DNA of 64,000 nt, from assembly GCA_030704425.1 (NCBI GenBank), contig JAPDHM010000002.1:1178001-1242000 (forward strand), read 5' to 3'. Under the pieces are notes generated by a model. That model saw only the letters and a program-made list of their open reading frames with translations. It was not told the origin of the DNA and did not search any database. This document shows positions 22,912-57,947 of the stretch, one piece after another. The stretch is from Rhodobacteraceae bacterium IMCC1909. Lineage in GTDB: Bacteria; Pseudomonadota; Alphaproteobacteria; Rhodobacterales; Rhodobacteraceae. Position 1 is the stretch's first letter; every line of letters begins with the position of its first letter. The position numbers were made by a program, and so were the translations under genes.

Positions 22912-24858
22912 TTACAGCAAATCTGGTGGTGTGGATTCGGTTTTGAGCTCTGCCACCAGTTGATCGAGCGCCACAACTTCGCTGTTTTTGCTGCCCAAGC
23001 GGCGCATCGAGAGGGTGCGATCTGCAACCTCTTTCATCCCCACAGCGAGGATCACAGGCACTTTGGCCACGGAATGCTCGCGCACTTTATAATTGATTTT
23101 TTCATTGCGGGTATCGGATTCGGCACGAATGCCCGCGGCGCGCAGGGCCGCAACCGCCTCATGAACAAATTCATCGGCGTCCGACACGATGGAAGCTACG
23201 ACCACCTGACGCGGTGCCAGCCAAAGTGGCAAGCGACCGGCATGTTCTTCAATCAATATCCCGATGAACCGTTCAAAAGATCCCAAGCAGGCGCGATGCA
23301 GCATGACCGGCCTATGCTTATTCCCATCTTCGCCGATGTAGCTGGCGTCCAAGCTTTCAGGCAGAACGAAATCCACCTGATGGGTGCCGCATTGCCAATC
23401 CCGGCCAATGGCGTCCGTCAAAACAAACTCCAATTTTGGACCATAGAAGGCACCTTCTCCTGGGTTCATCTCCGGTTCAATGCCCGCTTTGCGGGTCGCG
23501 GCCAAAAGAGCGGATTCTGCACGATCCCAAACCTCATCAGAGCCGGAGCGCTTTTCTGGCCGATCACTGAATTTCACCCGAAAGGATTCAAAGCCGAGAT
23601 CTTTGTAAACGGAAGTTAGATAGGCGATATATAGCGCCGTTTCCTCTTCGATTTGATCTTCACGGCAGAAAATATGCCCGTCGTCTTGGGTAAAGCCGCG
23701 CACCCGCATAATGCCATGCAGTGCACCGGATGGCTCGTAGCGTGCGCAGCTGCCAAATTCTGCCATGCGCAGCGGCAGATCTCTGTAGGATTTCAAGCCA
23801 TGATTGAAAATTTGAACATGGCAGGGGCAGTTCATCGGCTTGAGCGCATTGACGGCCTTTTCGCGGGCATGTTCTTCATCCACCTCAACGATGAACATAT
23901 TCTCCTGGTATTTGTCCCAATGGCCTGAGGCCACCCAGAGCTTGCGGTCCACGACCTGCGGAGTGTTGACTTCAACATACCCGCCTGCGCGTTGTTTGCG
24001 GCGCATGTAATCTTGTAGCTCGGTGTAGATGGTCCAGCCGTTTGGATGCCAAAAGACCTGCCCTGGTGCCTCTTCTTGCATATGGTACAAATCCATTTCG
24101 CGGCCTAATTTGCGGTGGTCGCGTTTTGCGGCTTCTTCCAGCATATGCAGATGGGCTTTGAGCTTTTCCTTATTGGAAAATGCGACCCCATAGATGCGTT
24201 GCAGCATCGCTCTATCGCTGTCGCCGCGCCAATAGGCGCCGGCCACATTCATCAGTTTGAACCCATCTGCGGGCACTTGCCCTGTGTGTTGCAAATGCGG
24301 TCCACGGCAGAGGTCTTGCCAGTCACCGTGCCAGTACATCCGTAGCGGTTCGTCGCCAGGGATGGCGTCAATCAGCTCCACCTTATAGGGCTCTTTGGCA
24401 TCGGTATAATGTTGCACCGCGCGCGTACGGTCCCAAACCTCGGTACGGACGGCATCGCGTTTGTTAATGATTTCCTTCATCTTTTTCTCGATCACGCCCA
24501 AGTCTTCCGGGGTGAAAGGGTCTTTGCGATCAAAATCATAATACCAGCCGTCTTTGATCACCGGGCCTATGGTCACCTGAACATCGGGCCAAATCTCCTG
24601 AACCGCACGGGCCATGATATGGGCCAAATCATGGCGAATCAGCTCATTGGCTTGTGCCTCATCTTTCATGGTATGAATGGCGATCGTGGCGTCGGTCTCA
24701 ATGGGCCAAGCCAGATCAAAATGCGCGCCATTCACTGTGGCAGAAATCGCCTTCTTCGCCAAAGAGCTGGCGATATCAGCAGCCACTTCGGCGGCGGTGA
24801 TGCCGGCCTCATAATGGCGGATAGAATTGTCAGGAAGGGTGAGTGAGATTTGGGCCAT
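22912..24858 (-). CDS. thrS: Threonyl-tRNA synthetase
   Basis: A 648-residue class II aminoacyl-tRNA synthetase. The N-terminal TGS domain ([16 protein letters not shown]) is followed by the editing domain with zinc-type HxxxH in [15 protein letters not shown] and the SAD motif. The catalytic core has the zinc cysteine in [16 protein letters not shown] and motif 2 in [17 protein letters not shown]. Motif 3 is in [20 protein letters not shown]. The C-terminal anticodon domain starts near [12 protein letters not shown]. The ATG at 24858 has GAGGAG nine bases upstream; the GTG at 24867 would touch that site. Confidence 0.97.
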
Positions 24859-25035
24859 CACGGGCACTCCTCGTCAGTTTGGCGCCCACGGAACGCCCGG
24901 TTGCGGGTATTTGGTTCGGCAGCTGTTTGGCGGTTTTGAATTTGACTGTCAACCGCTCAAGCGGCGGGGCGCGTTGCGGCCATTATGACACAGGCCCATC
25001 AGATGGACTCGCGGGGGCGTGAAATATCATTGTAA

Positions 25036-55971: not shown

Positions 55972-57447
55972 ATGAATTCGATTGCCTTATCTAAGCGCAA
56001 GGATTTTGCAGTTTACCGCGCCACTTGGGTTTTTGCGGCGGCGCTTTGTCTGCTGATCTTACAAGCTCTACAGGCCACAGCTCAAATGCTGCCAAATACA
56101 TTTGCCGATCTTGCCGATGAGATCAGCCCCTCTGTGGTGAATATCACCACAACAACCGTGATTGCTGGTCGTGCCGATCAAATGCCGCGTGGCATTGTAC
56201 CCAAGGGCTCGCCTTTTGAAGAGTTCTTTCGGGAGTTCGAAGATCGTCGCCGTGGCGGCAATGGTGGAGCCAGCCGCTCCTCTGCCTTGGGGTCGGGGTT
56301 TGTGATCTCTGCCGATGGGTTCATCGTCACCAACAATCACGTGATCGAAGGGGCCGATGAGATTGAAGTAGAATTTTTCTCCGGTGAAAGACTGGCCGCT
56401 AAGGTCATCGGCACCGATAAGAATACGGATATCGCAGTGCTGAAGGTCACGTCGGATGCACCGCTGCCTTTCGTCAGTTTCGGCGATAGTGACACAGCGC
56501 GCGTGGGCGATTGGGTGGTGGCGATGGGCAATCCTTTGGGACAGGGGTTCTCGGTGTCTGCGGGAATCGTTTCAGCCCGAAACCGGGCATTGTCTGGGAT
56601 TTATGACGACTATATTCAAACGGATGCCGCAATTAACCGGGGCAATTCTGGTGGGCCTTTGTTCAATCTGGATGGTGAAGTTGTCGGTGTGAACACCGCA
56701 ATTTTGTCGCCCAATGGCGGCTCTATCGGCATTGGCTTTTCTATGGCCTCCAATGTGGTCAGCCGGGTCGTTGATCAATTGACGGAATACGGCGAAATTC
56801 GCCGGGGCTGGCTGGGCGTGCGGATCCAAGATGTCGATGAAGACATTGCCGAAAGCATTGACGGTTTGGACCGGGCCGCCGGGGCCGTTGTGACAGGCGT
56901 GCCAGAGGGCCCCTCGAAAGATGCCGGAATATTACAGGGCGATGTGATCGTGATCTTTGATGGTCATGAGGTCGAGGACGTGCGCGATTTGGTGCAAACT
57001 GTCGGCAACACAGAAGTTGGCAAAGCGGTTGATGTGGTTGTGGTGCGCGATGGTGCGCAGGTGACATTGAGCGTCACCCTTGGCCTGCGCGACGACGAAA
57101 AACTGGCCCGCGCAGATGAGCCAGCGGTTAATGAAGATGCGCCAAAAGACTATGAGGACCTTGGGATCACCCTGTCGAACCTGACCGATGAAATTCGTGA
57201 GGGTTTGGACCTTACGGCTGGATTGGAAGGCGTTGTCGTTGTGGATGTTGTGGAAACCTCTGAGGCCTTTGAAAAAGGTTTGAAATCAGGGGATGTGATT
57301 GTGGAGGCCGGCCAAGAGAAGGTCACCTCACTTGCTGAGTTTGAAGAGCAAGTGAGCGCGACCAATGAGAGCGGCCGTAAAACGATGCTTTTGCTCGTGC
57401 GCCGCGGCGGCGATCCCCGGTTTTTGGCCCTCACTGTACAGCAATAA
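55972..57447 (+). CDS. degP: Do-family periplasmic serine protease (DegP/HtrA)
   Basis: A 491-residue HtrA protease/chaperone. The N-terminal signal sequence (WVFAAALCLLILQALQATAQ) leads to a trypsin-like domain with the triad His in VTNNHVIEGADE, Asp in KNTDIAVLKVTS and Ser in INRGNSGGPLFNL. Two PDZ domains follow (from about residue 270 and about residue 385). The ATG at 55972 is used because GGAG precedes it by six bases; the ATG at 55960 is the alternative. The 167-base gap after DUF2065 suggests its own promoter, but no clear consensus was found. Confidence 0.94.
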   Translation: MNSIALSKRKDFAVYRATWVFAAALCLLILQALQATAQMLPNTFADLADEISPSVVNITTTTVIAGRADQMPRGIVPKGSPFEEFFREFEDRRRGGNGGASRSSALGSGFVISADGFIVTNNHVIEGADEIEVEFFSGERLAAKVIGTDKNTDIAVLKVTSDAPLPFVSFGDSDTARVGDWVVAMGNPLGQGFSVSAGIVSARNRALSGIYDDYIQTDAAINRGNSGGPLFNLDGEVVGVNTAILSPNGGSIGIGFSMASNVVSRVVDQLTEYGEIRRGWLGVRIQDVDEDIAESIDGLDRAAGAVVTGVPEGPSKDAGILQGDVIVIFDGHEVEDVRDLVQTVGNTEVGKAVDVVVVRDGAQVTLSVTLGLRDDEKLARADEPAVNEDAPKDYEDLGITLSNLTDEIREGLDLTAGLEGVVVVDVVETSEAFEKGLKSGDVIVEAGQEKVTSLAEFEEQVSATNESGRKTMLLLVRRGGDPRFLALTVQQ

Positions 57448-57469
57448 ATGCAGCGGTACGGTGGTGAAA

Positions 57470-57495
57470 GGGGCGGCTCTAGGGCCGCCCTTTTT
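57470..57495 (+). terminator. Intrinsic terminator after degP
   Basis: A seven-pair GC stem GGGCGGC / GCCGCCC with a six-base loop, followed by TTTTT, 24 bases after the degP stop. It also lies just beyond the 3' end of the minus-strand OB-fold gene. Confidence 0.85.
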
Positions 57496-57508
57496 GGGCT
57501 CAGCGCGG

Positions 57509-57883
57509 TTATGGCTGCTCGGTGGCGCGGCTGGCCTCTGGCAGCAAGAGATCATCCAGCATGAAAGATATATCTTCCACATGCTCGGCGATCACATGAC
57601 ACACAGCGCCTTCGCGTTGAATGCGCCCTGTGATTCGCAACATACGCCCCGCGATTACGGCGCGGCGGTACTGCTCATAGAGTTTGCGCCAGACGATCAC
57701 ATTGCAAACTCCGGTCTCATCCTCCAGCGTGATGAAAATGACTCCATTGGCCGTGCCGGGTCTTTGGCGCACCAGGACCAGACCCGCCACAGTAACCCTT
57801 GCTCCATTTGGTGGCAGCTCCAGCATAGCATGGGGCAGGGCGGCGGGGGGCTTGGGCCAAGTGTTGGGAGAGTCGAATGACAT
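57509..57883 (-). CDS. Orphan OB-fold protein matching the C-terminus of error-prone polymerase DnaE2
   Basis: A 124-residue protein whose central part ([20 protein letters not shown], then [20 protein letters not shown]) is the OB-fold nucleic-acid-binding end of DnaE2 (ImuC), the SOS mutagenesis polymerase. The roughly 950 residues of polymerase domain are absent. Upstream on this strand there is no imuA, imuB or dnaE2; the ferredoxin gene starts 121 bases away on the opposite strand. The first 30 residues do not look like DnaE2. The ATG at 57883 lies right behind a perfect LexA box and about one promoter turn from a -10 element, so the mRNA may be leaderless. It may be a deletion relic of an imuA-imuB-dnaE2 cassette or a small SOS gene in its own right. 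Confidence 0.8.
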
Positions 57884-57917
57884 AGAACAAAAATAGAACA
57901 TTTGAGCAATATCGCAA
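57884..57917 (-). promoter_or_regulatory. Promoter of the OB-fold gene with overlapping LexA box
   Basis: On the minus strand a -35-like TTGCGA (57912-57917) and a -10-like TATTTT (57890-57895) are 16 bases apart. The start ATG begins six bases after the -10, which predicts transcription beginning at or next to the AUG. The LexA box covers the -10, the expected position for repression. Confidence 0.55.
57885..57899 (-). promoter_or_regulatory. LexA box GTTC-N7-GTTC
   Basis: On the minus strand GTTCTATTTTTGTTC is a perfect direct repeat GTTC-N7-GTTC, the alphaproteobacterial LexA-binding site. It ends one base before the ATG of the OB-fold gene. The orientation and position point to the OB-fold gene rather than the ferredoxin gene, which begins 106 bases away on the other strand. 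Confidence 0.85.
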
Positions 57918-57947
57918 GTGGCATTATTCCACCCTCATGGGGGGTAG

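Follow-up and report, generated by a model that had tools for sequence, protein, structure and literature searches.

The DNA analysed here, a stretch of 64,000 nucleotides from Rhodobacteraceae bacterium IMCC1909 (the window), carries a short gene for the C-terminal OB domain of the error-prone DNA polymerase DnaE2, and the rest of DnaE2 is encoded by a separate gene of the same genome. We propose, with a probability of about 70%, that the short gene codes for one half of an error-prone DNA polymerase split in two, and that its OB protein, separately SOS-induced, would rejoin the mutasome in trans. The direct basis of this proposal is the anatomy of the two genes, their co-occurrence, the single group formed by the polymerase cores, purifying selection and the conservation of the operators. 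The genome of the window (3.27 Mb in 9 contigs, listed as 99.97% complete) belongs to the genus Planktomarina. The features concerned, all on the minus strand, are as follows.

57509..57883, minus strand: dnaE2-OB, the proposed second half of the split DnaE2 (124 amino acids plus stop; matches PF01336 and NF004225).
57881..57883, minus strand: ATG start, 1 base past the operator and 6 nt past the −10.
57885..57899, minus strand: LexA-type operator GTTCTATTTTTGTTC, an exact GTTC-N7-GTTC whose half-sites are invariant in 16/16 carriers of the genus.
57890..57895, minus strand: −10-like TATTTT within the operator, identified by sequence; a similar hexamer occurs in most of 80 loci (the best 80 of 537).
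57912..57917, minus strand: −35-like TTGCGA, 16 nt from the −10; its CTTG is invariant in 16/16 carriers of the genus.

The frame is intact over its 124 codons. Its product matches the OB fold in Pfam (PF01336, E 7.1e-12) and positions 948-1039 of the 1047 of the NCBIfam model NF004225, 'error-prone DNA polymerase' (E 1.2e-30), with 106 bits for this model versus 34 bits for the best DNA polymerase III alpha model; by these matches the domain is an OB domain of the DnaE2 type. Neither Pfam nor NCBIfam found PHP, polymerase or (HhH)2 domains in the window gene, which holds the OB part only. The alignment of 45 OB proteins contains 40 invariant positions, and the proteins begin with M...WPRPP (also given as M..WPKPP). 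A conserved C-terminal motif was considered and dropped, because even a loose ending is shared by just 25 of 80 proteins (best 80 of 537). The open reading frame 57365-57880 on the plus strand, which has no Pfam match, was discarded as spurious.

The missing part of the polymerase lies about 370 kb away on the same contig (C2:860914-863799) and spans only positions 5-938 of NF004225. The two halves are complementary: cores stop at about 938 and OB proteins begin at about 948 of the 1047 model positions. The border is a linker, which reads LRAHPMELLRP... in full-length enzymes, and most cores end soon past LRAHPvALLRhxLTP, with a variable C-terminal tail just after the LTP motif. In Pfam the core gene matches DNA_pol3_alpha, the finger domain and HHH_6, with PHP below the cut-off. 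The catalytic PDIDxD is present in 28/28 cores and the LPLF clamp motif in 26/28. No intein family was found by Pfam in either the OB or the core piece, so protein splicing is not expected. The sequence SRDF[HR] terminates 15 of the 16 full-length DnaE2 examined and none of the split products (0/28 cores; 0/80 OB proteins among the best 80 of 537); the accessible part of PMC3919608 describes it as a putative interaction motif, C-terminal in about 77% of DnaE2.

The partners of the polymerase are also encoded in this genome, imuB at C2:432335-433987 and an ImuA homologue at C1:1752988-1753512. ImuA, ImuB and a DnaE2 with an intact active-site motif are thus all present, and no contiguous imuA-imuB-dnaE2 cassette exists in this genome: the mutasome is dispersed over four loci, with its polymerase in two pieces. 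The sequence-only reading had called the gene an orphan, which does not hold, since a truncated DnaE2 ending at the domain border, imuA and imuB all lie elsewhere in the genome; the complete imuA-imuB-dnaE2 set that it had thought of looking for is there in its components and not as a cassette. Among the 62 genomes of the family sample described below that have a stand-alone OB gene by frame length, ImuB was found in all 62 and ImuA in 61 (G136 lacks it). A loss of ImuA in the split genomes had been suspected from the lack of an imuA adjoining the core or imuB, and was ruled out by the diverged ImuA at a separate locus in 61/62.

No imuA, imuB or polymerase gene adjoins the OB gene of the window, as the sequence-only reading had noticed, and none of core, imuB and imuA was found near it in 80 named loci, the best 80 of 537 (phmmer, E 1e-5, flanks of up to 6 kb, some shorter; the imuA queries were of the cassette type, which a diverged imuA could escape). 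The OB gene often occupies a common site, with degP in 44/80, hflC in 40/80, purD in 36/80 and xseA in 33/80 of these loci (best 80 of 537). All 80 of these best matches among the 537 are short frames. Just downstream of the OB gene we also observed a predicted small lipoprotein with a PF01471 peptidoglycan-binding domain (for example L142:3158-3697), with matches in 38/80 loci (best 80 of 537); it occurs in many other genera and has no match in the Planktomarina loci.

In Alphaproteobacteria, GTTC-N7-GTTC is the LexA site and imuA-imuB-dnaE2 is a classic LexA target. Exact copies of this motif number 2 in the 64-kb window versus 1.51 expected by chance, so that a single box is not significant and the case for the operator rests on conservation. 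In the 16 carriers of the genus, the window's own genome included, all 8 half-site bases, the CTTG of the −35 (57915-57918) and the ATG are invariant, against a background upstream of the OB gene of 9 invariant columns in 70, 4 of which are the CTTG itself. An exact box was present in 78 of the 80 named OB loci, which are the best 80 of 537 relatives from a search with the window protein and were thus chosen for likeness (about 14 are Planktomarina, some from the same genomes as the genus set); in 75 of these 78 exact-box loci (from the best 80 of 537) the first in-frame ATG lies 1-3 nt past the box. A generic sigma-70 scan reported no promoter at the OB gene, the hexamer pair matching 8/12 by our own count with a scan threshold of 9. 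The sequence-only reading had described a perfect repeat, a −35/−10 pair over it, an ATG six bases on and hence an SOS-type promoter; the first three were confirmed as such, and the conserved box, CTTG and ATG argue for the last. The OB gene thus carries at its promoter the operator of the LexA (SOS) regulon, and lexA is present in the genome. LexA would be expected to bind this operator and DNA damage to induce the gene. Moreover, the position of the −10-like hexamer within the box, with the ATG 6 nt on, suggests that the mRNA is likely leaderless. The second exact box of the window (23464-23478), probably a chance site, lies within the long frame 22912-24867 on the minus strand, presumably a threonyl-tRNA synthetase by resemblance.

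The other genes of the system carry boxes too. Those of the core, imuB and imuA in the window's genome are each exact; along these genes they read GAAC-N7-GAAC, which is the motif as seen from the opposite strand. In split genomes boxes were found at 8/8 imuA loci fetched and at 7/8 imuB loci, the remaining imuB having none in the stretch scanned. At the core genes the box is exact in 10/28 and has one mismatch in 16/28 (mostly GAACAAAA[C/G]GTGAAT), a one-mismatch box arising in 6-18% of shuffles; 2/28 cores showed no box in the stretch scanned, although for one of these two, G157, an exact box does lie just within the end of that stretch.

We then asked how widely the two halves occur together. 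Among 20 Planktomarina genomes, the short OB gene is present in 16, the window's own included, and 15 of these 16 have a truncated core, reported in two pieces in G001, G003 and G014; the sixteenth (G011, 77% complete) has the OB gene with no core found. Three others (G008, G009 and G010) have a frame of 1110-1143 codons instead of the short gene, and G007 (86% complete) has a core and no OB match. The family was sampled with 150 genomes from 149 genera (148 others plus two Planktomarina) of at least 95 completeness, counted by hand. A stand-alone OB gene was found by frame length in 62/150, 61 of which also have a truncated core; adding G094, where inspection revealed a stand-alone OB of diverged sequence behind the usual promoter and also a core, brings these numbers to 63/150 and 62. 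Truncated cores occur in 68/150 (those of G145 and G162 are only fragments, each at the start of a contig), full-length DnaE2 in 71/150, and neither full-length enzyme, core nor OB in 11/150. The short OB piece of G162 was left uncounted, being the 3' end of a full-length enzyme that ends in SRDFH, and the OB pieces of G027, G095 and G099, near contig ends, are doubtful. With five doubtful genomes set aside, 61 genomes have both OB and truncated core, 1 has OB only, 4 have the core only and 79 have neither, a co-occurrence that is inflated by kinship. G062 (7 contigs, listed as 100% complete) keeps OB, an ImuB with the insert described below and ImuA, with no core seen (loci L153, L154). Conversely, G056, G074, G148 and G164 have a core, yet a profile search as permissive as E 10 gave no OB in them; three of these four are fragmented assemblies of 320-490 contigs, and G056, with 100 contigs and 99% completeness, is less fragmented. 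Outside the family, a class-wide search of 193 genomes, of which 4 belong to the same family, gave no convincing stand-alone OB at E 1e-12; the short frames that G336 and G348 show in this sample are at the start of a contig or span only part of the domain.

This distribution bears on the possibility that the OB protein acts outside the mutasome, as a small SOS-induced factor binding single-stranded DNA or the replisome and acting on DnaE1, RecA or SSB, for example as a brake on replication or mutagenesis. The AlphaFold2 model of the protein shows an OB fold followed by C-terminal helices (mean pLDDT 84), and its nearest neighbours among solved structures are generic OB domains, with tRNA-synthetase and RPA/CST-type domains ranking top; such domains often bind nucleic acid. 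A PDB sequence search with the OB profile gave 0 matches. The gene also has a site to itself, often a conserved one, apart from the core. However, its sequence is nearest to the OB domain of DnaE2 and it co-occurs with the truncated core, and we consider a role outside the mutasome unlikely.

An adaptor role, in which the OB protein would mainly dock on ImuB (or on the clamp) and be able to work without the DnaE2 core, has to be weighed with a peculiarity of ImuB. An insert of about 45 residues, containing GDAIDQEAxATRSRAxKRR and placed before the LPVAALRL segment, was found in 28/29 ImuBs of the split lineage (24 by pattern and 4 by eye; G090 lacks it) versus 0/16 cassette ImuBs; split-lineage imuB genes with the insert are among loci L136, L151, L154, L220-L239 and others. 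This contrast would suit a docking site, and G062, keeping the OB gene and its ImuB partner where no core was seen, also favours an adaptor. Against it, G056, G074 and G164 retain the insert without an OB gene, so that the insert tracks the lineage and not strictly the OB gene; G090, the deepest branch, is split and has no insert; and the core is kept in nearly every genome with the OB gene. We regard a mainly adaptor role as quite improbable.

The idea that the OB gene is a functionless relic of dnaE2, to which its being a fragment of a larger known gene and the premature stop that trims its final few residues in G002 might point, is barely credible in view of dN/dS ratios with a median of 0.063 and a maximum of 0.41 (29 usable of 120 Planktomarina pairs), of the promoter conserved in 16 genus carriers and of the presence of the gene in 62/150 family genomes by frame length. 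The gene is under purifying selection. A decaying copy among full-length relatives, as the sequence-only reading envisaged for a relic, is not what we found: the short gene is shared by 16/20 genus genomes. The deletion that would have fused the cassette promoter to its far end is rejected for the same reasons, and also because the rest of DnaE2 is a separate gene. That reading was thus right about the promoter, the OB fold and a small protein kept in use, and is not supported on the orphan and the fusion.

If the OB gene is half of a split polymerase, the origin of the split can be sought in the trees of both halves. In the tree of the polymerase part, 29 truncated cores (28 of the 68 from the 150-genome sample plus G007) lie on one side of a branch and 16 full-length enzymes on the other, with support of 100/97 and in 100% of 200 bootstrap trees; with G090 removed (28 rows) the support is 100/99, again in 100% of 200 bootstrap trees. 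In the OB tree (108 columns) the stand-alone OBs do not form one group, requiring 3 changes and grouping in 0% of bootstrap trees, so that the OB gene tree appears partly against a single origin. By these comparisons of sequences, the split of DnaE2 is old and kept across dozens of Rhodobacteraceae genera. G090, which branches off deepest in the split group, looks like an early or intermediate stage of the same split: its OB protein has 372 amino acids, its own box and the sequence HPRDQSKLLF but no SRDF (loci L241-L243), and HPRDQSKLLF, a leftover of the C-terminal tail of one-piece enzymes, resembles the HPREQAKxLF that these have ahead of SRDFH. Since this genome is split without an ImuB insert, the split preceded the insert or does not need it. 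The full-length copies of the Planktomarina genomes G008 and G009 group among the cassette enzymes, in an imuB-dnaE2 cassette of another lineage (G009 at L149, G008 at L150) with no stand-alone OB found in these genomes, which suggests replacement by horizontal transfer. Dinoroseobacter shibae (G047) has the split pair on its chromosome. Its plasmid pDSHI03 bears a full-length cassette, already in print (PMC9426580, accessible part), and the two systems could interact. The plasmid with the one-piece cassette is predicted to be conjugative (loci L137, L138, L147, L148, L151).

The scenario that we propose is the following. A large Rhodobacteraceae lineage, which we take to be the Roseobacter group, would descend from an ancestor whose dnaE2 was cut in the linker that joins the (HhH)2 region to the OB domain at the C-terminus. 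The PHP-Pol-HhH part and the OB part would have become two unlinked genes, each with a LexA-type operator, with imuA and imuB separate too. Cleavage of LexA after DNA damage would free all four genes for expression. ImuA, ImuB and the DnaE2 core would come together on the clamp, with the OB protein physically rejoining the core in trans and regaining the clamp or ssDNA contacts of the one-piece enzymes for what is probably a role in lesion bypass. Georgescu 2009 is said to have given ssDNA binding as the role of the OB domain in C-family polymerases. In a published AlphaFold model of ImuA-ImuB-DnaE2, ImuB touches PHP and (HhH)2 of DnaE2 (PMC12926913, accessible part); for the OB domain of E. 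coli Pol III, ssDNA binding was proposed, and clamp contact and bridging of fingers, thumb and exonuclease were seen (PMC4703070, accessible part). Because PHP and (HhH)2 stay on the core and such contacts have been proposed or seen for the OB domain, a free OB protein would probably restore them in trans. A different role of the OB protein is conceivable in view of G062, which keeps OB, ImuB and ImuA although no core was seen there. We further speculate, as a doubtful extension, that the free OB protein is a separately dosed subunit recruited by its WPRPP arm and later also by the ImuB insert, and that the split itself gates induced mutation, since both polymerase halves, each released independently, would be required for mutagenic synthesis; G090, split without the insert, weakens the insert as a docking site.

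The role of the OB domain in C-family polymerases is debated, between ssDNA binding on the one hand and clamp contact and bridging on the other (PMC4703070, accessible part). A natural enzyme with this domain as a separate gene would allow the domain to be removed, titrated and re-added without cutting the polymerase. Our results also suggest that a DnaE2 without OB domain in Rhodobacteraceae need not be broken, and mutasome counts made by gene neighbourhood may miss the split lineage. We found no description of a DnaE2 with its OB domain as a separate gene in the accessible literature, a scope that excluded supplements and closed-access papers: the main text of PMC6473078 on D. shibae does not mention dnaE, imu, polymerase, OB fold or translesion, PMC10421592 does not mention the OB-fold, and the accessible main text of PMC12926913 contains neither 'OB domain' nor 'OB-fold', the single mention of OB being in the legend of a figure, which counts it in the usual architecture. 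Provisionally, the split DnaE2 with a separate OB gene is new to the literature.

Compared with the ImuA-ImuB-DnaE2 (ImuC) cassette of Proteobacteria, the system shares the protein families, the LexA-type boxes, the catalytic residues of DnaE2 and the LPLF motif, and differs in its four loci, a DnaE2 made of two polypeptides, the lack of the SRDF[HR] end and the ImuB insert in 28/29. Several DnaE2 without OB domain are known (Timinskas et al. 2013, PMC3919608), whereas here the domain exists as a separate gene, an arrangement that the accessible part of that paper does not mention. The intein-split DnaE of cyanobacteria, mentioned in the same part of PMC3919608, is likewise a C-family polymerase in two pieces, but no intein family is found by Pfam in the present case. 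In the DnaE2X systems, ImuB is split into iPolY and a stand-alone ImuB-C (Timinskas et al. 2026, PMC12926913, accessible part). There too a mutasome subunit is encoded by two genes and was recognised through their association; it is ImuB that is divided in those systems, and DnaE2 in the one described here.
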